Source: a virus. Taken from it: 27,175 bases of DNA. The translations under genes were made by a program, and so were the position numbers. Shown here piece after piece: positions 3,228-24,894 of the stretch; position 1 is the first letter of the stretch; every line of letters starts with the position of its first letter. The DNA lies in the IMG/VR virus record IMGVR_UViG_3300027996_000135, positions 1 through 27,175 of that record; one strand, 5' to 3'. The notes under the pieces are model-generated. The model made no database searches, had not been told where the DNA came from, and worked only from the letters and a program-made list of their open reading frames with translations.

Positions 3228-3664
3228 AAATAAAATTTGTTTTCTTCTGCCATTTGTTGAACCAAAAAATAGTTTTGTTTAAATTCATCGGCATCCATTA
3301 AATAAATTCCATTATCTGAAGCAAAATTTCTGAAGCGTTCAATTGCAATATTCATTTCATCTTTGGAAATGTTTTTTGTGCTTTTTAAATCTTCACGAAT
3401 TTCACCGGTTATTTTATTAGTTCTTTCGTAAATAAATAAATCAGCGTTGACCGTTGCCTTGAAAATATTCTGTTTAGTGTACTCTATTGTTTCACCGTAT
3501 TCAACCGCGAAAATTGTTAATATTGCGTGAAGGTATGAATTTTGTTTAACCGATCGCATTGCTTTCTTTTCAGTCAATTCAATTTTCGCTCCTTTTTCAA
3601 TAAGTTGTGAAAGCTTTGTTTGTGCTTTCTTTGCTTCAAATGGTTTTAATAAATCTAACAACAT
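3224..3664 (-). CDS. NinB-like recombination protein
   Basis: 146 residues from the chosen ATG at 3664 (MLLDLLKPFEAKKAQ). An ATG 27 bases further upstream is in frame, but the region before 3664 codes for the end of a small helix-turn-helix protein in another frame, and the two genes then overlap by only 10 bases. The segment RSVKQNSYLHAILTIFAVEY followed by GETIEYTKQ and a C-terminal EMNIAIERFRNFASDNGIYL resembles the NinB (YbcN/Orf) family, which helps load recombinases or annealing proteins on SSB-coated DNA. Phage neighbours NinG, ERF and SSB-like fit this role. The assignment rests on pattern memory, not on a catalytic motif; moderate confidence. Confidence 0.7.
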   Translation of the reverse strand: MLLDLLKPFEAKKAQTKLSQLIEKGAKIELTEKKAMRSVKQNSYLHAILTIFAVEYGETIEYTKQNIFKATVNADLFIYERTNKITGEIREDLKSTKNISKDEMNIAIERFRNFASDNGIYLMDADEFKQNYFLVQQMAEENKFYL

Positions 3665-3834
3665 ACAAGTTCTAAATCTAAAGCGTTGCAAATCTTTTCC
3701 AGGTTGTGGAATCTTATTTGTTTATCACCGTTTATAAAGCCGCTTAAAGTAGCGTAACGAACACCGGAGGTGTTATGTAATTTCATCAAGTTCCAATTTA
3801 ATTCTTTCATTCTGTTTTGAATTGTTTGTTTCAT
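3655..3834 (-). CDS. small helix-turn-helix (Xre/Cro-like) DNA-binding protein
   Basis: 59 residues from ATG 3834 to TAG at 3655-3657. The product begins MKQTIQNRMKELNWNLMKLH and contains the Cro/C1-type pattern SGVRYATLSGFINGDKQIRF followed by HNLEKICNALDLEL: a recognition helix (YATLSGFINGDK) and the usual fourth helix (LEKICNALDLEL). This suggests a small repressor or activator acting on phage promoters. It follows a G-rich/C-rich stem-loop (3847-3867) and overlaps the NinB-like start by 10 bases. It would be a natural candidate to read the repeated promoter boxes or the left-edge TACC/GGTA array, but nothing in the sequence proves its target. Confidence 0.8.
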   Translation of the reverse strand: MKQTIQNRMKELNWNLMKLHNTSGVRYATLSGFINGDKQIRFHNLEKICNALDLELVCC

Positions 3835-3846
3835 AGTTTATAAATT

Positions 3847-3867
3847 AAAGGGGAATTTCACCCCTTT
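3847..3867 (-). promoter_or_regulatory. intercistronic stem-loop, GGGG/CCCC family (copy 1)
   Basis: On the minus strand AAAGGGG-TGAAATT-CCCCTTT forms a perfect 7-bp stem with a 7-base loop. It lies between the stop of the 53-residue gene and the start of the HTH gene, ending 12 bases before that ATG. No T-run follows, so a standard terminator is unlikely. Three further copies are at 6678-6695, 7910-7932 and 10052-10068. Confidence 0.7.
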
Positions 3868-3873
3868 GTTTTT

Positions 3874-4035
3874 TTATAGATACATAATAACTTCAGCCAT
3901 TTTTGAAACTCCGGTATAATAAGCATTAACATAATCAAAATGTTCTTTTACCATTTCAATTGCTCTTTCTTCATTGTTTCCCCATTTTGTTAATCTTGCT
4001 ACAATTTTTGCTTTTAATGTTTCTTCGTTTTTCAT
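3874..4035 (-). CDS. hypothetical small protein, first gene after promoter P1
   Basis: 53 residues from ATG 4035 (MKNEETLKAKIVARLTKWGN). A longer frame to 4068 exists, but it would run into the -7 element at 4066-4073, so the shorter start is chosen. The product is helical, with ERAIEMVKEHFDYVNAYYTG and a C-terminal VSKMAEVIMYL; no family known to me. It is the sole gene between promoter P1 and the first stem-loop, the same position occupied by the 43-residue gene after P2 and the 78-residue gene after P3. The three products are not obviously alike in sequence. Confidence 0.7.
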   Translation of the reverse strand: MKNEETLKAKIVARLTKWGNNEERAIEMVKEHFDYVNAYYTGVSKMAEVIMYL

Positions 4036-4065
4036 AATAATTTGTTTTTTTGTTTTTGTCTGATA

Positions 4066-4098
4066 CAAATATACGCTATTTAGTTTATTACTTCCAAA
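4066..4098 (-). promoter_or_regulatory. Bacteroidota-type promoter P1
   Basis: The -7 element TATATTTG (4066-4073) and the -33 element TTTG (4095-4098) are separated by 21 bp, matching the TTTG/TAnnTTTG consensus of Bacteroidota. The segment around it (TTTGGAAG ... CTAAATAGCGTATATTTGTA) is nearly the same as at P2 (8102-8134). The transcript would start about 25 bases before ATG 4035 and read the recombination/modification operon. Confidence 0.75.
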
Positions 4099-4139
4099 CT
4101 TTTCTTTAATTATTTTCGCTTTTTAGTAAACTTTTTTTA

Positions 4140-4170
4140 ACTTCTCAATGTTTATAGGCTTTTCAAGGGC
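4140..4170 (-). promoter_or_regulatory. conserved upstream box of P1
   Basis: On the minus strand this reads CCTTGAAAAGCCTATAAAC then ATTGAGAAGTT. It aligns with the boxes upstream of P2 (8174-8204) and P3 (10430-10460), with the shared core GAAA-GCCT-TAAA and a final AAGTT. It lies about 43 bp upstream of the -33 element. It may be a binding site for a phage activator or repressor. Confidence 0.55.
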
Positions 4171-4182
4171 AAAGTTTTTTTG

Positions 4183-4506
4183 TTAAATTTTCACATTTTT
4201 CAATAAGCGGTCATTAATTCGCTTCAATTTCTTCAATTCCGCTTCCTGGATTCCTATTTTAACCGCTTGTTTTGTCAGCATCAATTCATTTTTCTTGTGT
4301 TCTTTTGCATAATCATTGTTTAATTCGACAAGTGAACCAATGAATTTAATTGCTTCTGTTATGTCATTAATAACCGTTTGAGCATTGGCCGGAATCGGCT
4401 TCAATGCTTCTTCTTTTGTTTTTGGTGCTTGTATCGTGTATTTCTTTTTCAGTCCTTGTACGATCTTTTCAAGTTTTGCTTTGTTTGTTATTATGTCTAT
4501 TATCAT
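4183..4506 (-). CDS. hypothetical coiled-coil protein
   Basis: 107 residues, rich in Lys, Glu, Leu and Ile. The second half (about 60-105: DYAKEHKKNELMLTKQAVKI and onward) has heptad-like spacing, suggesting a coiled coil. The first part contains KPIPANAQTVINDITEAIKF. No catalytic motif, signal or membrane segment is seen. It follows the helicase gene by 12 bases and is the last gene before the P1 region, so it probably belongs to the replication operon. A structural or accessory role beside the helicase is possible; I do not recognise the family. Confidence 0.7.
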   Translation of the reverse strand: MIIDIITNKAKLEKIVQGLKKKYTIQAPKTKEEALKPIPANAQTVINDITEAIKFIGSLVELNNDYAKEHKKNELMLTKQAVKIGIQEAELKKLKRINDRLLKNVKI

Positions 4507-4518
4507 TTTATTTGTTTT

Positions 4519-5541
4519 TTATTGCCAAAGGTCCAAACCGGGTTCTTCCCATTTTTCAATTTTTCCTTGTGGCTCAATTCTGTTATTAATATCAAAATCT
4601 TTATTCGGTGTTAATTTTATTGGCGGTTTAATTGCTTCAATCTTTGCCGGTTTCTTTCTTTCTGTGGCATAACGTTTCACGTTACCATTGTGCGTTTGTT
4701 CAATTGTGAAATATACTAACTTTTCAACATCAAATTCAAGAGAGGTGAATCCAACATTTCCACAACTTCGCGGTTTAACCTTGTGAACGGTTATGTCTGC
4801 AATTATAGTATCTGTGCTTTCTCTATGCACCGTTATCATTACTTTTCCACTGTTGATCCATTCACTTCCCCCTTTCATATCATATGGGGTTGGACTTTTT
4901 CGAACTCCATTCTCTTTTTCTGTTAGCTTTGGATGAATAACCGTGTGAATATGCAAATTATTATCTTCAGCGGTTTGATTTCTGTAAGGCAATACCGCTT
5001 CTAAATACATTGCATAACCGCCATACTCGTTATAAGGGTGACTCATATCTTTCCAGGAATCAATTGAAGCCGTTTGTATTTCATCTTTCATACTTGCGGC
5101 CATATCGTAAAATTCGAAAGGTGTTAATTTTGCTTTTACATCGGCTTTCGTTAATACTTTGAAGTGTTCCAATAACCATTCAGTTTGCCGATATATTTCT
5201 TGGTCCGAAATAACATTTTTATATTTTGGATTAAAACATTTTGCGGTTTTCTTATGAAGTAAATCAGCAATTATTTCAATATTGCTTCCAACATCCGGAA
5301 AATATACAAGGTGTTTCCAACCGTAATAAAGTGAAGTGTTTAAAAGCAATTCCATTAATACTTGAGTTTTTCCGCTTCTTGGAAAGCCGGTCCAATCTGT
5401 GCAAGTACCTAATTGCATTGTATAAAGATCATTAAGATTCTCAAAGCCTAAATACTTTCCTTTTTCGTTATACGTGTCGCGATATTCAATTAATGCTTCA
5501 GTAACTTCAACCGCTTGTGTTATTTTAAAACCTTTCTTCAT
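4519..5541 (-). CDS. replicative DNA helicase, Twinkle/T7 gp4-like ATPase domain
   Basis: 340 residues. A Walker A motif is at about 52-59 (GFPRSGKT), followed by a helix (QVLMELLLNTSLYYGW). A Walker B-like strand lies at 157-163 (TASIDSW), and the family signature continues with HIHTVIHPKL, SPTPYDMKGGSEW, and VMITVHR before KVKPRSCGNVG. This order matches the RecA-like helicase domain of Twinkle/gp4 and DnaB-type proteins. There is no primase domain at the N-terminus, so priming must come from elsewhere. The start overlaps the stop of the DUF6291-like gene (TAATG), a typical pairing of helicase with its loader or initiator. ATP-driven unwinding at the phage fork is the likely role. Confidence 0.85.
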   Translation of the reverse strand: MKKGFKITQAVEVTEALIEYRDTYNEKGKYLGFENLNDLYTMQLGTCTDWTGFPRSGKTQVLMELLLNTSLYYGWKHLVYFPDVGSNIEIIADLLHKKTAKCFNPKYKNVISDQEIYRQTEWLLEHFKVLTKADVKAKLTPFEFYDMAASMKDEIQTASIDSWKDMSHPYNEYGGYAMYLEAVLPYRNQTAEDNNLHIHTVIHPKLTEKENGVRKSPTPYDMKGGSEWINSGKVMITVHRESTDTIIADITVHKVKPRSCGNVGFTSLEFDVEKLVYFTIEQTHNGNVKRYATERKKPAKIEAIKPPIKLTPNKDFDINNRIEPQGKIEKWEEPGLDLWQ

Positions 5542-6155
5542 TAGTCGAAAGTGTTTAAGCGTTTAACCTTTGCTTTATACGTGCCGTTTAAATCTCTTTT
5601 ATACCAAGTTGATAATCGTGAAGCAATTCCAAAAGTTTTTTCTTTTTCAAATCGCATCTTTTTATCCTTCGGTCCGTGTTCGGTCCAATACATTTCGAAA
5701 TCAATAAAAAGTTGTTTAGGGTATTTATTCAGATTCTCTTTGTTAAAATCTGTTAATGATTGTCGAAAACAAAGTTTTCGTTTTAATATATCATTTACTT
5801 TCTCATTTACACTAACATTAACATTAACACTATCATTAACACTTACAGTTGGATTTGTTGAGTTTTGTTGAACAGATTTAACACTTGTTGCTTTTTTTTG
5901 CTTTCTCGCTTCAGCACTCTTTTTACCGGCTTCGGAACGCTTAACTTTTACATCTTCAAACTTTCTTAAATCGCGTTTTAACGCTTGTTTAATAGATTCA
6001 AAAGCTAATTCCGTAATAAAATCACCTTCCGGTTCTTCATCATTGCAATACGCGTAAATGTGTTTAATTAGCAAACCGGCTTGTTCATCAGTTAGCTTTG
6101 AGAAAATACCGATTTGGTCGGTGTATAATACGAATGATTTTTTGCCATTGGCCAT
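5541..6155 (-). CDS. DUF6291-like replication protein (possible helicase loader)
   Basis: 204 residues. The N-terminal part MANGKKSFVLYTDQIGIFSK, then DEQAGLLIKHIYAYCNDEEP and ELAFESIKQALKRDL, fits the DUF6291 family as I know it, found in Bacteroidota phages and prophages. A basic helix RSEAGKKSAEARKQKK follows, then a Val/Asn/Ser repeat linker (residues about 101-120: TVSVNDSVNVNVSVNEKVND) and a C-terminal domain with FIDFEMYWTEHGP and LSTWYKRDLNG. The two-domain layout with a low-complexity linker resembles DnaD/DnaB-like primosome proteins. It is translationally coupled to the helicase (TAATG). The function as loader is inferred from position. Confidence 0.72.
   Translation of the reverse strand: MANGKKSFVLYTDQIGIFSKLTDEQAGLLIKHIYAYCNDEEPEGDFITELAFESIKQALKRDLRKFEDVKVKRSEAGKKSAEARKQKKATSVKSVQQNSTNPTVSVNDSVNVNVSVNEKVNDILKRKLCFRQSLTDFNKENLNKYPKQLFIDFEMYWTEHGPKDKKMRFEKEKTFGIASRLSTWYKRDLNGTYKAKVKRLNTFD
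5801..5860 (-). repeat. short-period repeat coding a Val/Asn linker
   Basis: The plus strand reads a run of near-repeats of ACATTA/ACACTA units. On the coding strand this gives alternating GTT/GTG/GTA and AAT/AGT codons, i.e. Val-Asn and Val-Ser pairs between the two domains of the 204-residue replication protein. It probably varies in length by slippage. Confidence 0.5.
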
Positions 6156-6157
6156 AA

Positions 6158-6238
6158 TTCAAGTTTTTAAATTCAAGTTTATTAAAAATATAGTAGCAGG
6201 AACTTGAAAACCTCGTTGAACAATATCGCTAAATATTG
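6158..6238 (-). promoter_or_regulatory. intergenic regulatory region with inverted and direct repeats
   Basis: The 105-base gap before the DUF6291-like gene contains CAATAT-CGCTAA-ATATTG, a perfect 6-bp inverted repeat (6221-6238). It also has two direct copies of TTCAAGTTT (6158-6166, 6172-6180; 14 bp apart) and an inverted copy, AACTTGAA (6201-6208). A TATATT element lies between them (minus strand ACTATATTTTTA) but lacks the final G and a clear -33 box. This looks like an operator region controlling the initiator/helicase genes. Confidence 0.4.
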
Positions 6239-6260
6239 ACTACCTAACAAAGATAGAAAT

Positions 6261-6656
6261 TTATTTATACAATTCCATTATTCTTTGCATAATTTTTTTG
6301 TGATGCTCTTTTATTTCAAAATCGTATTCTACCAAATCATTTATTTGCTTAATTGAATAAACAACCGTTGAATGATCTTTATCAAAATAATCACCAATCT
6401 TTTGCAGACTTAATTTGTTAAATTCTTGTCTTAAAAAATACATTGCAAATTGTCTTGCAATTATAATTTCTCTTTTCCTGGATTTCGTTTTACTCAATTC
6501 GAAAGGTATATTAAAATGATGAAATACTAATCTTATTAAATTTTCACAATTTTCATTGGTTGCTTTCTTTCTTTTTAGGTCCAAGAAATGTTGCCTTGAA
6601 ATTGTTGCTTTATATTCTTTAATTCCTTGTTCATTTAAATAATGTGCTTGATACAT
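6261..6656 (-). CDS. DnaA domain IV-like protein (origin or operator binding)
   Basis: 131 residues from ATG 6656 (MYQAHYLNEQGIKEYKATIS). A start further upstream (6707) would run through the stem-loop at 6678-6695, so the shorter start is used. Residues 59-76 (SRKREIIIARQFAMYFLR) and 93-105 (KDHSTVVYSIKQI) match the helix and the D-H-S/T-T-V signature of the DnaA C-terminal DNA-binding domain; the pattern between them (LSLQKIGDYF) also fits. There is no AAA+ domain, so it cannot act as a full DnaA. It may bind DnaA-box-like sites in the phage origin, recruit host DnaA partners, or act as a repressor. It lies among SSB-like, initiator-like and helicase genes. Confidence 0.82.
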   Translation of the reverse strand: MYQAHYLNEQGIKEYKATISRQHFLDLKRKKATNENCENLIRLVFHHFNIPFELSKTKSRKREIIIARQFAMYFLRQEFNKLSLQKIGDYFDKDHSTVVYSIKQINDLVEYDFEIKEHHKKIMQRIMELYK

Positions 6657-6677
6657 AATGTTTTTAGTTTTAAATAA

Positions 6678-6695
6678 AGGGGTTTTTACACCCCT
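6678..6695 (-). promoter_or_regulatory. intercistronic stem-loop, GGGG/CCCC family (copy 2)
   Basis: Minus strand AGGGGT-GTAAAA-ACCCCT, a 6-bp stem. It lies between the SSB-like stop and the DnaA-like ATG, 21 bases before the latter. The loop differs from the TGAAATT of copies 1 and 4. No T-run follows. Confidence 0.6.
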
Positions 6696-6731
6696 AAATT
6701 GGTTCAAATCCTATTTTTTAAATGCAGCTAA

Positions 6732-7070
6732 TCAAAAAGGTAAATCATCAGCACCTTCTTCAACTGGTTGTGGTGCTTCCGTTGTTTCTGCAATATCCTT
6801 AACACATCGCCAAGATGAAAGATTTGTGAAATATTTACCTTCCCATTCCCGGCACTTAATATTAAAATGAACGGTTACTTTATCACCAAGAACGTTGTAC
6901 TTTCTAAATTGCTCTATTTTGTCCGCGCTGAATATTTCAAATGAAATAATATTATCATATTGCTCACCGGTGTCAATGGTATAAAACATTTTTTGCCAAG
7001 TTTTTTCACCTTTGCCGCCTTCAATAGTTTCACCTATTGTTTTAATTGTTCCTTTAATTTCTAAATTCAT
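6732..7070 (-). CDS. single-stranded DNA-binding-like protein (DUF3127 type)
   Basis: 112 residues. The N-terminal MNLEIKGTIKTIGETIEGGK followed by WQKMFYTIDTGEQYDNIISF and VTVHFNIKCREWEGKYF has the OB-fold spacing of DUF3127, a Bacteroidota SSB-like family. The last residues are acidic and end DDLPF, matching the SSB C-terminal tail that recruits partner proteins. It probably coats single-stranded DNA during phage replication and recombination and contacts ERF, NinB-like and helicase partners. It follows the 80-residue gene by 11 bases and precedes the DnaA-like gene. Confidence 0.82.
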   Translation of the reverse strand: MNLEIKGTIKTIGETIEGGKGEKTWQKMFYTIDTGEQYDNIISFEIFSADKIEQFRKYNVLGDKVTVHFNIKCREWEGKYFTNLSSWRCVKDIAETTEAPQPVEEGADDLPF

Positions 7071-7081
7071 AATTCTAATTT

Positions 7082-7324
7082 TTAATTGTTTATATTTTCG
7101 TTTAATATTTCAATAAGATTGCTTAATTCTTCAGCATCTTTAAATTTTATTGATGGATATGTATTGTATATTTCCACAATCCATTCACCGTTTTTTACTT
7201 CATCGTCTGCTTGTGTGATAAAAGTTAGCCCATCTACAACATCTAAATTGTAATAATAAAATGATGGTTCAGATTCTTCAATTTCTTTTTCAAATCCGAG
7301 TTTAATTAATTCTTCTAAATTCAT
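7082..7324 (-). CDS. hypothetical acidic protein (80 residues)
   Basis: 80 residues, strongly acidic, beginning MNLEELIKLGFEKEIEESEP. It contains aromatic runs (SFYYYNLDVVDGLTF) and a WIVEIYNTYPSIKF segment, then a C-terminal helix DAEELSNLIEILNENINN. It has no signal or membrane segment. Small proteins of this look occur in Bacteroidota phages with no known role. It lies between Gp157-like and SSB-like genes, 77 bases after the former with no promoter evident in the gap. Confidence 0.68.
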   Translation of the reverse strand: MNLEELIKLGFEKEIEESEPSFYYYNLDVVDGLTFITQADDEVKNGEWIVEIYNTYPSIKFKDAEELSNLIEILNENINN

Positions 7325-7401
7325 TGTTTATATTATTTGGTTATTATACACTCTTTGAATTGTTGTTTTATTTAATTATATTGTACGATTTTTTTTGATT
7401 A

Positions 7402-7890
7402 TCAGTTAATTTTTAGGTTAAAATGTTCAACTATTAAAACACCTTCTATTTCCTGGCCTTCTTTAATCGCTTTCTTCAATGCTGCTTTATCCGCTTGTTC
7501 AGTTACTTTTACAACCTTAAATTCCTTCGGTAAAGCATTGACATTTTCAACCTCAACCGTTGAACTTTTGCGCGTTCCGAAAGAAGATAATCCGCTTTCG
7601 AAGTCACCAAACAATTTAACTGCATCCAGCAACCTATTTTTTAAATTTGATACAAGTGTATTGTTTCGCTTTTTCATTGCTTGTAAACGCTTAATTTCAT
7701 CGTCTATTTGCGTGTTGAAAGATTCTTTTCCTTTTATAACTGATAAATATGCGATTGATTTGCTTTGAAGTTGGCCTTCATTTATTTCAAGTTGCTCTGC
7801 AATTTCTTCAGTTATTTCACCTTCAGCATTTTCAATTTCGTGCATCAATGCAAGGTGTTCATTTTCGATTTGATAAAGTGATGTTTTCAT
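7402..7890 (-). CDS. Siphovirus Gp157-like protein
   Basis: 162 residues. The helical N-terminus (SLYQIENEHLALMHEIENAE), the region KSIAYLSVIKGKESFNTQID followed by DEIKRLQAMKKRNNTLVSNLKN, and a C-terminal beta part (VEVENVNALPKEFKVVKVTE, QADKAALKKAIKEGQEIEGV) match the Gp157 family. That family is known from streptococcal phages and is widespread in siphoviruses, usually beside ERF or other annealing proteins. Its exact role is not settled. The long central helices suggest a coiled coil. It follows stem-loop copy 3 and is the second gene after promoter P2. Confidence 0.85.
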   Translation of the reverse strand: MKTSLYQIENEHLALMHEIENAEGEITEEIAEQLEINEGQLQSKSIAYLSVIKGKESFNTQIDDEIKRLQAMKKRNNTLVSNLKNRLLDAVKLFGDFESGLSSFGTRKSSTVEVENVNALPKEFKVVKVTEQADKAALKKAIKEGQEIEGVLIVEHFNLKIN

Positions 7891-7909
7891 TGTTATTTGT
7901 TTTTAGTTT

Positions 7910-7932
7910 AATGGGGGAGTTTCACCCCCATT
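7910..7932 (-). promoter_or_regulatory. intercistronic stem-loop, GGGG/CCCC family (copy 3)
   Basis: Minus strand AATGGGGG-TGAAACT-CCCCCATT, a perfect 8-bp stem with a 7-base loop. It lies between the 43-residue gene and Gp157, 19 bases before the ATG, followed by the A-rich leader AAACTAAAAACAAA. Confidence 0.7.
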
Positions 7933-7936
7933 TGTT

Positions 7937-8068
7937 TTATGAATTAGGAAATAAATATTTATCAGCTAAATCAGAAAGTTTAATGTATAATGCTTGTTCT
8001 TCAAAAGTAATTGTTCCGCTCTCTTGTTTTGCTTCTAAAATTTCGATTCTTTTAATTAAGTTTTTCAT
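7937..8068 (-). CDS. hypothetical small helical protein, first gene after promoter P2
   Basis: 43 residues from ATG 8068 (MKNLIKRIEILEAKQESGTI, then TFEEQALYIKLSDLADKYLF). A longer frame to 8155 would cover the core promoter P2 and is rejected. The sequence is Glu/Lys/Leu-rich and probably all helix; no family is recognised. It is the only gene between P2 and stem-loop copy 3. Confidence 0.68.
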   Translation of the reverse strand: MKNLIKRIEILEAKQESGTITFEEQALYIKLSDLADKYLFPNS

Positions 8069-8101
8069 TGTGTTTGTTTTTAGTTTGTTTCTTTGTTGGT
8101 A

Positions 8102-8134
8102 CAAATATACGCTATTTAGTATCAAACTTCCAAA
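8102..8134 (-). promoter_or_regulatory. Bacteroidota-type promoter P2
   Basis: TATATTTG (8102-8109) with TTTG (8131-8134), spacer 21 bp. The stretch CTAAATAGCGTATATTTGTA and the TTTGGAAG around the -33 element are the same as in P1. The mRNA leader (CAACAAAGAAACAAAC type) also resembles that of P3. Confidence 0.78.
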
Positions 8135-8173
8135 TCCTAAAGCAATTATTTTCATTTTTTTTTAAATTAATTT

Positions 8174-8204
8174 CAACTTTGTAGGTTTTACAAGGCTTTC
8201 AGAA
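8174..8204 (-). promoter_or_regulatory. conserved upstream box of P2
   Basis: Minus strand TTCTGAAAGCCTTGTAAAAC then CTACAAAGTTG, nearly the same as the box of P3 (TTCTGAAAGGCCTATAAAC then ACTACAAAGTT). It begins right after the ERF stop, where an AT-rich inverted repeat (AACTAA/TTAGTT) also occurs. About 40 bp separate it from the -33 element. Confidence 0.58.
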
Positions 8205-8708
8205 CTAATTTTTTTTAGTTAATGATTTGTATTTGTTTATTTGTTCGGTTGTTATAATGTATTTCTTTGAAAGTTCTTTTGCATCCGTTCCTTTTAGAAA
8301 TTCCGCATCCGCATCTGTTTTTGTGAAAACTTTCTTTGCAGTTGGTTTTTTTGGAATAGCTTTGTTGGCATCATCATCTTCAGCCTGGAGCGATAAAAGT
8401 GAGGATAATGTATATCTTCTAAAGTATGAAATTTGGCTTCCAATTTTTTGAGGGTCGCGTTCATCTGTTAACTTTATTTCACTTCGGCAATCATTACCGG
8501 TTTCAACATCAATAATTAATGAAACAACTTTTCCCTCAATAATTGGTTGCATAATCATCAAACCGTATTTTTCCATTACCGGTTCAACGTGTTGCAATAA
8601 TTGGTTAATGTCGAAATACTTTGATTTGTAAAATGGATTTTTTGAATCTTTAGAAATTGCACCGATTTCTTTTTTTGCTTGTGCGAGTTTTTGATAAATT
8701 GTTTTCAT
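8205..8708 (-). CDS. erf: ERF-family single-strand annealing protein
   Basis: 167 residues. The N-terminal MKTIYQKLAQAKKEIGAISK, NPFYKSKYFDINQLL and VEPVMEKYGLMIMQP, and especially GSQISYFRRYTLSSLLSLQA followed by EDDDAN (about 90-115), are the hallmarks of the ERF family (P22 Erf, Sak-like annealing proteins). These proteins bind single strands and anneal complementary DNA in phage recombination, and some circularise phage genomes. Erf proteins are often somewhat longer; the C-terminal part here is short and Lys-rich. It follows the 67-residue gene and precedes P2, the Gp157-like gene and the SSB-like gene, a typical recombination neighbourhood. An A-rich leader (AACTAAAAACAAAACAA) sits before the ATG. 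Confidence 0.9.
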   Translation of the reverse strand: MKTIYQKLAQAKKEIGAISKDSKNPFYKSKYFDINQLLQHVEPVMEKYGLMIMQPIIEGKVVSLIIDVETGNDCRSEIKLTDERDPQKIGSQISYFRRYTLSSLLSLQAEDDDANKAIPKKPTAKKVFTKTDADAEFLKGTDAKELSKKYIITTEQINKYKSLTKKN

Positions 8709-8730
8709 TTGTTTTGTTTTTAGTTTTTAA

Positions 8731-8934
8731 TTATGATAACATTTCTTTGTAAAATTCAATGTTTGTTAATTCTTTATATTCTTGCGGTGTAAAAAAACCA
8801 ACTCTTTTAATTTCTTTTGCTTCTTCTAATAATGAAGTCAAATCATTGTTATTTTCAATAGCTTCACAAAGTCTGTTTTCAAAAGTTAATGATTGTGATT
8901 TAATTTGTCGGTCGTAATCTGTTGTAAATGTCAT
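8731..8934 (-). CDS. hypothetical small protein after promoter P4
   Basis: 67 residues from ATG 8934 (MTFTTDYDRQIKSQSLTFEN). The longer open frame up to 9003 would code through the promoter P4 and its T-rich spacer, so it is rejected. The product is acidic and helical (LCEAIENNNDLTSLLEEAKE), ending ELTNIEFYKEMLS. No family known to me. It is followed 22 bases later by the ERF gene and probably is co-transcribed with it. Confidence 0.68.
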   Translation of the reverse strand: MTFTTDYDRQIKSQSLTFENRLCEAIENNNDLTSLLEEAKEIKRVGFFTPQEYKELTNIEFYKEMLS

Positions 8935-8962
8935 AATATTTGTTTTTTTTTGTTTGTTGATA

Positions 8963-8993
8963 CAAATATAAAAAAATATATTTAATAAACAAG
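8963..8993 (-). promoter_or_regulatory. Bacteroidota-type promoter P4
   Basis: TATATTTG (8963-8970) with CTTG (8990-8993), spacer 19 bp. The leader GTATCAACAAAC resembles those of P1-P3, but the upstream box is missing and the HTH gene ends at 9017, only 24 bases above the -33 element. This would start the small gene-ERF transcript. Confidence 0.6.
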
Positions 8994-9016
8994 CATAAAA
9001 CAATAAAAAAATATAT

Positions 9017-9211
9017 TTATTTTTTCTTCAATACAATTTCAGCATCATAACCAAAGAATAAAAATATCTTTTTGATCCTGGAAAGATTTCCATTGTTGCT
9101 TTCTTCAATTGATTTAATTGTTAGAACATCAATTTTGGTCGCGGTTGAAATTTCCTTTCTTGTGACCTTGTGTTCTTTTTTAAGTTGAGTTATTTTATTT
9201 CCTACTTTCAT
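9017..9211 (-). CDS. small helix-turn-helix protein
   Basis: 64 residues. VGNKITQLKKEHKVTRKEIS followed by TATKIDVLTIKSIEESNNGN and LSRIKKIFLFFGYDAEIVLK is the pattern of an Xre-type HTH (helix 2-turn-helix 3 at about 17-38), with the small-protein tail seen in antitoxin-like and phage regulators. It is basic at both ends. It sits directly upstream of P4, so it may regulate that promoter. It follows the 32-residue gene by 10 bases. It could act with, or in competition with, the 59-residue HTH protein at 3655. Confidence 0.75.
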   Translation of the reverse strand: MKVGNKITQLKKEHKVTRKEISTATKIDVLTIKSIEESNNGNLSRIKKIFLFFGYDAEIVLKKK

Positions 9212-9221
9212 TTTATTTTTT

Positions 9222-9320
9222 TTAAATTAATGGTCCGGCACTTCCGGTATAAATTGCCGCTTTAATTCTTTCTTGTTCCAACCATTTTAAATATTTTAAA
9301 AATTTTTTAATTCTTTTCAT
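9222..9320 (-). CDS. tiny basic protein (32 residues)
   Basis: From ATG 9320 to TAA at 9222-9224; the product begins MKRIKKFLKYLKWLEQERIK and ends AAIYTGSAGPLI. The first half is a basic amphipathic helix. It lies in the 112-base gap between the 70-residue gene (stop 9324) and the HTH gene, three bases after the former. No family assigned; similar short KxLKYLKWLExERIKA-like proteins are, from memory, seen in other Bacteroidota phages. Confidence 0.6.
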   Translation of the reverse strand: MKRIKKFLKYLKWLEQERIKAAIYTGSAGPLI

Positions 9321-9323
9321 TGT

Positions 9324-9536
9324 TTAAAATTTTACAGTTAATGAAATACACGCTTTTGATTCGGGTAATCCAGCGAATGAAAAAGATGTTACATTATAGC
9401 CATTCGGCATTGAAAAAACATTCTTTGTCGTTAGCTGAATTGTAAACGTGTTTTTTAAAGTAATTCCTTGTTGAATTTCATAATCTTCAACATCTGATTC
9501 AATTATTGTTTTTTTTAAGTCGTTTAAAGTTTTCAT
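9324..9536 (-). CDS. hypothetical protein (70 residues)
   Basis: 70 residues: a helical N-terminus (MKTLNDLKKTIIESDVEDYE) then a beta-rich part (GITLKNTFTIQLTTKNVFSM, YNVTSFSFAGLPESKACISL, TVKF). No signal or membrane segment. The start overlaps the stop of the 30-residue gene (ATGA). I do not recognise the family. Confidence 0.65.
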   Translation of the reverse strand: MKTLNDLKKTIIESDVEDYEIQQGITLKNTFTIQLTTKNVFSMPNGYNVTSFSFAGLPESKACISLTVKF

Positions 9537-9625
9537 TTGTTTTCGTTTTTAATTTTTAAATATTTATAATAAAGTTTCGTATTAAAATTAGGCCAATAAT
9601 TTTGTAGTGATTCCAAGTTTTTCAT
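9533..9625 (-). CDS. tiny protein (30 residues)
   Basis: From ATG 9625 to TGA at 9533-9535, coupled to the following gene by ATGA; it starts two bases after the stop of the 96-residue gene. It begins MKNLESLQNYWPNFNTKLYY and ends KYLKIKNENK; basic, no membrane segment. The four-base overlap and tight upstream spacing suggest it is real, but no homologue is known to me. Confidence 0.5.
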   Translation of the reverse strand: MKNLESLQNYWPNFNTKLYYKYLKIKNENK

Positions 9626-9627
9626 AA

Positions 9628-9918
9628 TTAATGTATTTCAGATTTGTATTCAATTATTTTCGGGTGAATTTCAAAACAAATTTCATTTAATATATCGCGA
9701 TCAGTTCCGATTGATTCACCAAATAAAACGCTGATTCCTTCAAACTTTTCAATCATTTCAACTTCAAGTAAATCTTCACCTTTAAAATGAAGCGCATAAC
9801 TCCAATCAATAGCAGAATATTCAAGATAAAGTATTGATTTTTTATTGATGAAAATACAACCAATTGATTTTGGTTCATCTGATAATAGTTCTTTTAGTGG
9901 TTCTAATAATAAATTCAT
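9628..9918 (-). CDS. hypothetical acidic protein (96 residues)
   Basis: 96 residues, acidic: LLLEPLKELLSDEPKSIGCI, then beta-like FINKKSILYLEYSAIDWSYA and LHFKGEDLLEVEMIEKFEGI, with a C-terminal GTDRDILNEICFEIHPKI. Globular in appearance, without recognisable motifs. It overlaps the stop of the 39-residue gene by ATGA. Confidence 0.68.
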   Translation of the reverse strand: MNLLLEPLKELLSDEPKSIGCIFINKKSILYLEYSAIDWSYALHFKGEDLLEVEMIEKFEGISVLFGESIGTDRDILNEICFEIHPKIIEYKSEIH

Positions 9919-10034
9919 TTCATTTTGTTTTTAAGTTCAATTATTCTTTTTGTGTGCCATTGATAAAAATGTGATTCGTAACCAAGTGATTTAAATTGTT
10001 CAACCTGGTTTAATAGTTTTTGAAGTTCTTTCAT
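9915..10034 (-). CDS. tiny basic helical protein (39 residues)
   Basis: From ATG 10034 to TGA at 9915-9917; begins MKELQKLLNQVEQFKSLGYE and ends SHFYQWHTKRIIELKNKMK. It follows stem-loop copy 4 by 17 bases, and its stop overlaps the next start (ATGA). Probably two helices. No family recognised. Confidence 0.6.
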   Translation of the reverse strand: MKELQKLLNQVEQFKSLGYESHFYQWHTKRIIELKNKMK

Positions 10035-10051
10035 TTTAGTTGTTTATAAAT

Positions 10052-10068
10052 GGGGGAATTTCACCCCC
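10052..10068 (-). promoter_or_regulatory. intercistronic stem-loop, GGGG/CCCC family (copy 4)
   Basis: Minus strand GGGGG-TGAAATT-CCCCC, with the same loop as copy 1. It lies between the 78-residue gene and the 39-residue gene, 17 bases before the ATG, and no T-run follows. Confidence 0.7.
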
Positions 10069-10081
10069 TTTTAATTTATTT

Positions 10082-10318
10082 TTAATATCCTAAAGCCTCA
10101 ACCATTCCAGCAGCTAAATAATCTAAGTAGTGAAAAACATCACCATTTAAAAAATCAATTTTTACTAAAGTTGTTTTTATTTGGTTGTGGTATTGTGTTG
10201 CTCCGTTTACGTAATCAATTAACATTTCATAAGTCAAGCCAAAATGACCATCTAAGTTTATGCAAGTATCTAAACTTTTTCCTTTTTCTTCGATTAATGT
10301 AGTTAAGTAAGTTTTCAT
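10082..10318 (-). CDS. hypothetical small protein, first gene after promoter P3
   Basis: 78 residues from ATG 10318 (MKTYLTTLIEEKGKSLDTCI). A longer frame to 10360 would run into the -7 element of P3 and is rejected. The sequence contains NLDGHFGLTYEMLIDYVNGA, then TQYHNQIKTTLVKIDFLNGD and VFHYLDYLAAGMVEALGY. It is soluble and not recognised. It is the only gene between P3 and stem-loop copy 4 and would be the first early product. Confidence 0.7.
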   Translation of the reverse strand: MKTYLTTLIEEKGKSLDTCINLDGHFGLTYEMLIDYVNGATQYHNQIKTTLVKIDFLNGDVFHYLDYLAAGMVEALGY

Positions 10319-10357
10319 AATTTTTAGTTTTAATATTTGTTTCTGTCTTTGTTGGTA

Positions 10358-10390
10358 CAAATATATAAAATTATATGTAGCTTTTACAAG
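10358..10390 (-). promoter_or_regulatory. Bacteroidota-type promoter P3
   Basis: TATATTTG (10358-10365) with CTTG (10387-10390), spacer 21 bp as in P1 and P2, and a closely similar leader (GTACCAACAAAG). The core spacer differs from P1/P2, so this copy has diverged more. It lies at the late/early junction and would start the first early operon. Confidence 0.72.
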
Positions 10391-10429
10391 AAATATAAAA
10401 AAATATAGATTTATTTTTAACTTTGTAGT

Positions 10430-10460
10430 GTTTATAGGCCTTTCAGAACGAAAGTTTTTT
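10430..10460 (-). promoter_or_regulatory. conserved upstream box of P3
   Basis: Minus strand TTCTGAAAGGCCTATAAAC then ACTACAAAGTT, with a short CTTTC/GAAAG inverted repeat at its upstream end. It matches the P2 box almost base for base and the P1 box over its core. It lies about 32-40 bp upstream of the -33 element. Confidence 0.58.
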
Positions 10461-10487
10461 TAAAGTTTTTTTGTATAAAAGCAGAAA

Positions 10488-10596
10488 TCCCGGTAACAAG
10501 CCGGGAAATCCTAAACTAAAAACAAATAAATATGAAGAACATATTTGTACAAAAGTAATTAAAATCTTTTACAAAGGATATACATACGTATCTTTT
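10488..10596 (+). ncRNA. possible plus-strand transcript with leader-like sequence and tiny ORF
   Basis: On the plus strand a GC stem (TCCCGG-TAACAAG-CCGGGA, 10488-10506) is followed by CTAAACTAAAAACAAA and an ATG at 10532 opening an eight-codon frame (MKNIFVQK, stop 10556-10558). After it, AAAGGATA/TATCTTTT (10573-10596) and a T-rich tract could serve as a weak terminator. The leader words match those of minus-strand genes. No plus-strand promoter was found, so transcription is uncertain; a truncated gene remnant is an alternative. Confidence 0.25.
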
Positions 10597-10621: not shown

Positions 10622-11806
10622 TTACTTTCTCTTATCGTATTCAATAAAATAATCTGTGTGGCTTACTTCGTTACCAAATTTTGGTATTACTTGGATTGAA
10701 TAACCACTATAAGAATCACCGAAATTATGTTGAATCCAGGAACTTGGCGGTGCGAAAGACATAAAATTTCTATAATCAAACTTCTTTGTTCGTTGGTAGC
10801 CTATTTGGTGCAAGTCACCTTTTTCAACGTGAATAAATTTTGAATTAATGTCATAATGTTCAATGTAATCATTAATTAAACGAATAGCTTTGTCGTTTAA
10901 AACTACCGGAAGGCCGCCTTTCATTTGCTCTTTATCTTTACCGTGCGTTAAAACAAAACAATGATCGCCATACGTTCGGTGTTCAATAAACCTTTCCAAT
11001 ATATCAACTTCAACAATGTCATTTGAGTACATTAAATTGATAATCTTTTGAATACCTTTATTAATTATCAATGCAAAATCTCCGGAGTGATTGTCGTTAC
11101 AGATACACCGAAGAATTATTTTATTTGCAACATTTGCTTCAACTAAAGAGCGAATCAAGTTAACATAAGCATCAACACATACTTCAAAAACTTCAGCGTT
11201 TGACATATTTTGCGGTAAATTATGACCACCTCGCGTTGTATAACCATTCCAACCATCAGCCAAATCACCTAAATCATCAAGTAACAACAAGTCGAAAGTT
11301 CCGAAAGTTGAATGTTCTTTTAAAATACTATTATAAACCTTTTCAATTGATTTATTATAAATTTTTGAATTGTATTCGTATTGGAATAAAGAGTTGTTTC
11401 CTGGATTTGGATTCATTCCAACGTGTGAATCTGTTATGGTAACTTTTAAAGCCTTATTTGATTTGCTTGATGGTTGTGTTCGCTTTATCGGTGTAAAGTC
11501 TTTTAAATGCTTTTCAATTATTGAATCAAATACATCACCAATTTTTACGGTTTGGTCTTGTTTTTCTTCAACAACATTCAAAGAAAAATGTTCTGATTTG
11601 TGCCAATAATGCCGTATTTTTTCCGGTGAAATTCCTTTTTCAATACATTCACCAATTAAAGCCGGATCGTAACCGCGATAAATGTAAAGTTTTTCTAATT
11701 GTTCAGCGGTTATTGTATATTTTGAGTTCCTTGTTCCTTGTTTTGTTTTGATTTCTAAGCCTAAAATTTCGGCTTCTGAATCTGATAATCTTAACCGTTT
11801 TTTCAT
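10622..11806 (-). CDS. calcineurin-like metallophosphoesterase
   Basis: 394 residues. Residues 1-75 look helix-turn-helix-like (ITAEQLEKLYIYRGYDPALI). From 119 on, metal-site motifs appear in the order of the calcineurin-like fold: TITDSHVG (Asp126, His128), LLDDLGDLADGW (Asp181), CICNDNHSGD (Asn239, His240), VLTHGK (His288) and VEKGDLHQIG (His333). This fits phosphodiesterases/nucleases such as Mre11/SbcD-like enzymes, but the substrate cannot be read from sequence. Similar proteins occur in other phages near DNA-processing genes. It is the last gene of the late strand, eight bases after the spanin-like gene, and its end leads into the late/early junction. A role in DNA processing during late infection is an inference. 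Confidence 0.78.
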   Translation of the reverse strand: MKKRLRLSDSEAEILGLEIKTKQGTRNSKYTITAEQLEKLYIYRGYDPALIGECIEKGISPEKIRHYWHKSEHFSLNVVEEKQDQTVKIGDVFDSIIEKHLKDFTPIKRTQPSSKSNKALKVTITDSHVGMNPNPGNNSLFQYEYNSKIYNKSIEKVYNSILKEHSTFGTFDLLLLDDLGDLADGWNGYTTRGGHNLPQNMSNAEVFEVCVDAYVNLIRSLVEANVANKIILRCICNDNHSGDFALIINKGIQKIINLMYSNDIVEVDILERFIEHRTYGDHCFVLTHGKDKEQMKGGLPVVLNDKAIRLINDYIEHYDINSKFIHVEKGDLHQIGYQRTKKFDYRNFMSFAPPSSWIQHNFGDSYSGYSIQVIPKFGNEVSHTDYFIEYDKRK

Positions 11807-24690: not shown

Positions 24691-24716
24691 AAAAAAAGCA
24701 CCTTAATTTGGTGCTT
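24691..24716 (-). terminator. Rho-independent terminator after the major tail protein genes
   Basis: Minus strand AAGCACC-AAATTAA-GGTGCTT gives a perfect 7-bp stem with a 7-base loop, followed by a run of T (24691-24697 read as A on plus). The stem overlaps the final codons (Ala-Pro-Asn) and stop of the 63-residue gene. It would end the transcript from promoter P5. Confidence 0.72.
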
Positions 24717-24894
24717 CTTCTTTTGATTGTTTCTTTGGTTTCTTTTCCTTTTTAACTGTTCCGGTTATTTCGTAATAAATACTTTCTGTATTTCCTCCGA
24801 ACCTCACTTGGAAATGTTCCTTGAACTTACTAAGTGACATTTTTTTAATGGAACGCACGTTTAAATGCGTTCCATTTATCAACTTATAATCCAT
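24703..24894 (-). CDS. small basic protein downstream of the major tail protein
   Basis: 63 residues: MDYKLINGTHLNVRSIKKMS, then LSKFKEHFQVRFGGNTESIY and a Lys-rich tail (KKEKKPKKQSKEEAPN). The start overlaps the upstream stop (TAATG). Codons 7-17 lie inside a long inverted repeat (24847-24876), and its end lies inside the terminator. Not recognised; it could be an accessory or chaperone of the tail tube protein. Confidence 0.65.
   Translation of the reverse strand: MDYKLINGTHLNVRSIKKMSLSKFKEHFQVRFGGNTESIYYEITGTVKKEKKPKKQSKEEAPN
24847..24876. repeat. perfect 11-bp inverted repeat inside the start of a gene
   Basis: AATGGAACGCA (24847-24857) and TGCGTTCCATT (24866-24876) are exact inverse complements around the eight-base loop CGTTTAAA. 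It covers codons 7-17 of the 63-residue gene; no T-run follows on the minus strand. It may fold in mRNA and affect translation of that gene. Confidence 0.5.

Follow-up and report, generated by a model that had tools for sequence, protein, structure and literature searches.

Exchangeable small-gene cassettes with a putative T-loop-capped hairpin in the early operons of a Bacteroidota-type phage

The viral DNA analysed here, referred to below as the window, is an AT-rich IMG/VR virus record of 27,175 bases (IMGVR_UViG_3300027996_000135), and its predicted genes lie on the minus strand. Among the early genes of the window are those for an ERF recombinase (8205-8708), a Gp157 protein (7402-7890), a DUF3127/SSB-like protein (6732-7070) and a DnaA-C protein (6261-6659), together with a DUF6291 replication protein and a helicase-like ATPase. 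The ATPase matches 80 phage records, 79 of which are Flavobacterium phages (e.g. FCL-2), all at less than 60% identity, and a search of the phage collection gave no near DNA relative of the window among named phages. An earlier note on this DNA had pointed to three modules, P1, P2 and P3, in each of which an upstream box, a promoter with a 21-bp spacer, one small gene and a GGGG/CCCC stem-loop precede the rest of an operon. Here, we describe these modules and their exchange among related phages, and focus on the hairpin that follows each small gene, the loop of which matches a tRNA-like T-loop.

Promoters, small genes and hairpins are all present where the note had placed them. Each module carries its own predicted promoter of the Bacteroidota type, TTG-N21-TATATTTG, on the minus strand (P1, 4066-4097; P2, 8102-8133; P3, 10358-10389), and TACAAATATACGCTATTTAG is common to P1 and P2. 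The pattern TTG-N21-TAHHTTTG has four matches in the window vs 1.05 expected by chance, and -7 elements on their own are about as frequent as expected (42 vs 41), so that the promoter calls are based on position and on conservation in relatives. As relatives, ERF-bearing loci were collected and five close ones (L123-L127) were aligned, plus a further locus, L040; most are fragments. The P1 promoter is kept in L123 and L040, and the -7 region of P3 in L125 and L126. The upstream box, also on the minus strand, is found at 4134-4181 for P1, near-identical in L040 and L123, and at 10414-10461 for P3, kept in L125 and L126. These two copies share 79% identity across 48 nucleotides (nt); the P2 copy (8170-8216) has diverged and is recognisable with a poorer match. 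The small genes encode proteins of 53 residues (P1, 3874-4035, minus strand; phrog_9411, of unknown function), 43 residues (P2, 7937-8068, minus strand; without a family in the protein family search) and 78 residues (P3, 10082-10318, minus strand; phrog_6004). The three proteins are mutually unrelated, and frames are kept with swapped cargo, in agreement with the earlier proposal that it is the regulatory frame that repeats.

A hairpin scan placed the module hairpins on the minus strand at 3847-3867 (P1, AAAGGGG-UGAAAUU-CCCCUUU; kept in L123), 7910-7932 (P2, AAUGGGGG-UGAAACU-CCCCCAUU) and 10052-10068 (P3, GGGGG-UGAAAUU-CCCCC; identical core in L125 and L126), with computed stem stabilities of -9.7 to -13.4 kcal/mol. 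In the modules, 4-13 nt separate the preceding stop codon from the stem, and 12-19 nt lie between the end of the hairpin and the following start codon. Such hairpins are expected 0.1 times by chance in the window, and a loop-independent scan of the window returned only the three module hairpins, a fourth at 6678-6695 (minus strand) and a palindrome at 24,876, which overlaps an open reading frame (ORF) at 24,703-24,894. The fourth hairpin stands before the DnaA-C gene and has neither promoter nor small gene; thus, the hairpin can occur independently of the module. L123-L127 also have a hairpin at this SSB/DnaA-C junction, but of differing sequence, GAAGGGAGTTAAACACTCCTTTCTTTTT in L124 and L125, with a G preceding the first A in the L124 version, so the structure is retained there and the sequence exchanged. 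A terminator scan scored the three module hairpins as terminator-like on the opposite strand only, and the fourth (6695-6678) as terminator-like on the coding strand.

The 15-mer GGGGTGAAATTCCCC (GGGG-UGAAAUU-CCCC) was scanned in a large viral collection, with duplicates removed, together with the same stem carrying other loops, and a site was called pre-start if a start codon lay at most 45 nt downstream on the same strand. The loops TGAAATT, TGTAATT, TGCAATT and AGAAATT each gave at least 120 matches, and for them the figures below are counts among the matches listed; the counts for TGAATTT (26 matches) and for the scrambled loop ATGTAAT (47 matches) are complete for the whole collection. 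Because the large scans are lower bounds, fractions are compared, and absolute numbers are used only where a scan is complete. With the TGAAATT loop, 69 of 104 distinct sites are pre-start in the sense orientation and a single site has a start on the other side only; 94 of the 104 are intergenic, and the median gaps are 11 nt from the upstream stop and 24 nt to the start. The same stem is pre-start at 44 of 79 sites with TGTAATT and at 31 of 88 with TGCAATT; one example of the latter checked among the sites that are not pre-start is a permuted tmRNA. Replacing T1 by A (AGAAATT) leaves 22 of 91 sites pre-start, replacing A5 by T (TGAATTT) 3 of 22, and the scramble 1 of 37.

The idea that the loop is a T-loop arose after the first of these scans and was put to the test in the final two, TGAATTT and TGTAATT, which have equal base composition; TGAATTT lacks the U1-A5 pair of a T-loop. 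They differ both in abundance (26 vs at least 120 matches in the collection) and in the fraction that is pre-start (p = 0.0005). The computed energy is the same, -12.1 kcal/mol, for the T-loop and A5-to-T hairpins, and lower for the T1-to-A and scrambled ones. By sequence and single-position controls, the hairpin has the T-loop pattern U-N-N-R-A-N-N, a seven-nucleotide loop on a stem in which U1 and A5 are needed, and UGNAAUU would match a tRNA-like T-loop. An unbiased search of the collected loci for further T-loop hairpins gave 6 of 37 pre-start loops of 7-9 nt, a number too small to weigh. The outer stem pairs 1-3 are Watson-Crick in 95, 85 and 55% of cases vs 51, 31 and 31% in shuffled sequences, with pair 4 at chance. 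The statistics indicate that, in many unrelated phages, a hairpin with an inner G4/C4 stem, two to three covarying outer pairs and a UGNAAUU loop stands about 11 nt after a stop and about 24 nt before a start on the coding strand, and that it relies on those bases of the loop from which a T-loop would be built. Covariation, sense orientation and loop specificity support the view that it behaves as a selected RNA element. The RNA element proposed earlier gains from this. A gene-specific leader was considered and rejected, since the genes downstream span 41 families: 57 downstream proteins match them, and of the families listed none is common to more than two.

The same 15-mer is also known from other RNAs. 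In bacterial genomes, GGGGTGAAATTCCCC is pre-start in 5 of 111 sites, and those that were checked lie in FMN riboswitches or in group II introns; in L488 and L506, both bacterial, it falls within the 3' portion of such introns (RF00029). Among viral contigs, we noted a permuted tmRNA in L338 and a glutamine-II riboswitch in L348. The identical 15-mer GGGGUGAAAUUCCCC lies in the FMN riboswitch (RF00050), in which loop L2, with the sequence UGAAA, is a T-loop that accepts an intercalated base (PMC3764141). The riboswitch copy is one arm of a large aptamer, whereas the phage copy stands alone. In the window and in 14 phage loci, the majority of them with the hairpin, no Rfam 15 family scored above the gathering threshold, and a literature search found no paper describing it.

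In relatives of the window, whole modules are lost and gained. The P2 cassette, with approximate limits 7905-8213 (minus strand), lies between two copies of TTAA(A)CTAAAAA; L123, L124 and L125 have the empty site ...CATTAACTAAAAACAAATAACAATGAAAACATC, or nearly so, and the window holds the whole P2 box, promoter, gene and hairpin between TTAACTAAAAA and TTAAACTAAAAACAAATAACAATG. The P2 slot of L126 and L127 contains a different gene, without promoter and without hairpin. At the P1 site of L124, L126 and L127, a gene for 107 residues is directly joined to a NinB-like gene; hence, the P1 box, promoter, 53-residue gene, hairpin and helix-turn-helix gene (3655-3834, minus strand) are missing there as one block. 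L123 retains the P1 promoter and hairpin with several other ORFs between them in place of the small gene, and L125 and L126 retain the P3 box, promoter region and hairpin with different small genes inside. L040 has the P3 leader behind its P1 promoter, then the 78-residue gene in place of the P1 small gene, the hairpin, one more gene and the helix-turn-helix gene; positions 2597-2936 of L040 align to 10365-10016 of the window at 88% identity over 353 columns, and the first 45 nt of this block match the P1 and P3 leaders alike. The leader AACTAAAAACAAATAANAATG marks the border of the gene gain at the P2 slot. These alignments show a conserved frame whose cargo differs by loss, replacement or relocation, and the empty, swapped and moved cargo in relatives identifies the module as a frame with exchangeable cargo. 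A search for the same order in relatives, which the note had suggested, gave a mixed outcome: frames recur in L123, L125 and L126, with modules lost and cargo exchanged. The order does not persist as a fixed unit, as P2 is absent from L123-L125, P1 is absent from L124, L126 and L127, and several ORFs occupy P1 in L123.

Some further features touch on these modules. The leader AACTAAAAACAAATAANAATG recurs before several early minus-strand starts (7905-8220 and others). Proteins of phrog_6004 occur in phages of Tenacibaculum, Vibrio, Leptospira, Escherichia and Mycobacterium, a scattered distribution, and the 78-residue protein is the product of a widely travelling accessory gene of unknown function. 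A promoter-like site, TTG-N19-TATATTTG, lies at 8963-8992 (minus strand) before a gene for 67 residues, with neither box nor hairpin, and a terminator-like hairpin, CCCGGCTTGTTACCGGG, at 10488-10506 (minus strand) follows the gene at 10622-11806 directly before P3.

The core of the upstream box, AAAGCCTTAYAAACATTG, is present in 36 viral contigs. In some of these, as in the relatives of the window, a TAnnTTTG element follows about 70-90 nt downstream; in others the core is placed between inverted arms and followed by repeats, beside a primase-helicase-like gene, and in several it forms one arm of a terminator-like hairpin. The box may be one half of an inverted repeat: across sites, 52% have flanking arms of at least 7 nt vs 15% expected, but the arms are weak in the window. 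In L573, L574, L581, L582, L587, L602, L603 and L604 the core, AAAGCCTTATAAACATTGA, stands between inverted arms with iteron-like repeats, the sequence of which varies from phage to phage, with a primase-helicase-like gene nearby. The box core with inverted arms and repeats is possibly a replication origin or an operator array. A host origin of the box was rejected: it is absent in seven genomes and present in two of 397 genomes of one family, once in a hairpin beside an apparent tRNA gene and once inside an ORF.

Taken jointly, we consider it reasonably probable that the modules are exchangeable early-gene cassettes with a T-loop-capped punctuation hairpin. Each cassette would combine a Bacteroidota-type promoter and its box, common to the modules, with a small accessory gene and the hairpin, which would close the small gene and open the A-rich leader of the next gene. 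Crossovers may occur in the short sequences that frames share, namely the promoter leader and the hairpin with the start leader. In the transcript, the hairpin could act as punctuation that ends or protects the upstream cistron and insulates the downstream start region, and newly arrived cargo would then be expressed early without upsetting its neighbours. In Flavobacterium, unstructured A-rich leaders are favoured at translation starts, and initiation drops when there is structure close to the start (PMC6847099); a hairpin ending 12-19 nt before the start would leave such a leader free, and, as the gap between stop codon and stem is short, the 5' arm could be covered by a ribosome that is terminating.

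Several observations weigh against this proposal. We infer the punctuation role from position alone, and the crossover model is built on five close relatives and L040, most of them fragments. The T1-to-A loop is still pre-start in 24% of the sites among the matches listed, so some hairpins without a T-loop share the position. In four regions from cultured phages, an unbiased scan gave no G4/C4 T-loop hairpin. Finally, U-rich tails at about 42% of the UGAAAUU sites also fit partial termination.

The last point leads to the explanation nearest to that of the earlier note, in which the hairpin is a weak intrinsic terminator that partially stops transcription after the small gene, so that the first gene is made in excess. 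A stable stem directly after the stop codon fits this, as do tails with at least five T in eight at 29 of the 69 pre-start UGAAAUU sites (among the matches listed), the U-run that follows the relatives' hairpin at the fourth site, and the coding-strand terminator call at 6695-6678. In contrast, the module hairpins are terminator-like on the opposite strand only, with coding-strand tails AAUUUAUA, AAACUAAA and AUUUAUAA; U-rich tails are found at only 8 of 44 pre-start UGUAAUU sites among the matches listed, and more stable hairpins with other loops are scarcer at the pre-start position, on which ground a generic terminator hairpin was rejected as the full account. As the coding-strand scan gave no strong termination for the three modules, punctuation or insulation is favoured with partial termination second, and we regard the weak terminator as a minority possibility. 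Slightly less probable still is a docking site, where the T-loop takes a base from another RNA or binds a host protein that reads the tRNA elbow, e.g. in translation or RNA processing. T-loops do accept an intercalating base (PMC3764141), and the loop requirement fits a T-loop and not stability; however, no partner came to light, and the genes that follow the hairpin are of many kinds.

It seems improbable that the frames are kept as patches of homology for recombination only, with a hairpin devoid of RNA function. Exchange borders do coincide with the promoter leader, the hairpin and the start leader, AACTAAAAACAAATAANAATG flanks the P2 insertion, and L126 and L127 gained their P2-slot gene without promoter or hairpin, but the outer stem pairs covary across unrelated phages, and orientation and loop identity are selected, neither of which patches would need. 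Chance or shared composition, in which short G/C runs merely look alike in AT-rich phage DNA, has in its favour an inner stem of just 4-5 bp; it is very hard to reconcile with the 0.1 hairpins expected in the window and with the strong contrast to composition-matched loops across the collection, and a chance origin was rejected by the shuffles and the control-loop scans.

The cassettes, to return to the punctuated-cassette proposal, resemble several described systems. A moron is an accessory gene with its own promoter and hairpin, located between genes that are adjacent in relatives (PMC4378225). As with the morons of lambdoid and other phages, single accessory genes are inserted here between neighbours, as seen for P2 against L123-L125 and for P1 against L124, L126 and L127, with their own predicted promoter, called by sequence alone as TTG-N21-TATATTTG, and a hairpin. 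A moron also has a transcription terminator of its own and independent expression, e.g. from a prophage. Unlike in morons, the module hairpins score as poor coding-strand terminators, none of the three being terminator-like on that strand, the frames are common to the cassettes, and the cassettes precede core operon genes. In PeSLs (promoter early stem-loops) the terminator precedes the promoter. Papers that cite the PeSL reports (Arbiol 2010, Comeau 2014) describe composite promoter/stem-loop motifs of T4-like phages, which recur within a genome and border genes shuffled between relatives (PMC4503421, PMC5931544). The likeness is that recurrent promoter and stem-loop frames border shuffled genes, here in L040, L123, L125 and L126, and the difference is that the window hairpin has a T-loop, stands directly pre-start, also occurs without a promoter and goes with another promoter type. 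A PeSL unites promoter and stem-loop in a single repeated intergenic motif; here they flank the gene, and the 10506-10488 hairpin is the one found directly before a promoter, P3. Nor does the window belong to a T4-like phage, to judge from its ATPase, which matches Flavobacterium phages, and its ERF, Gp157 and DUF3127 genes.

In Cluster K mycobacteriophages, the start-associated sequence (SAS) is a fixed 13-bp sequence and the extended SAS (ESAS) has arms of 17 bp, both rare outside that cluster (PMC3203893). Like the hairpins described here, they recur in a set orientation immediately before many starts of unrelated genes and in part form inverted repeats, and their function is unknown; unlike the window hairpins, they have no T-loop. 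The SAS consensus GGGATAGGAGCCC (PMC3203893) and its inverted-repeat extension are absent from the four hairpin-leader sequences of the window. The likeness of the cassettes to PeSLs and morons means that the note's "no described equivalent" does not hold at the cassette level, where SAS/ESAS are close as well; the new part is the hairpin.

Moron acquisition has been called mysterious (PMC4378225), and it is still an open matter how compact phage operons take up accessory genes and keep their expression intact. In this phage and its relatives the empty site, the filled site and the move of a block are directly readable. On balance, we lean towards the T-loop hairpin being a widespread, as yet unnamed element that punctuates operons between cistrons in unrelated phages, with selection acting on the fold of its loop over stability, and that in some Bacteroidota-type phages may also serve as one border of a swappable early-gene cassette. 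It offers a simple sequence signature and, in the contrast of one loop order with another, a negative control matched in composition; it also suggests an uncatalogued use of tRNA-like T-loops in phage messenger RNA.

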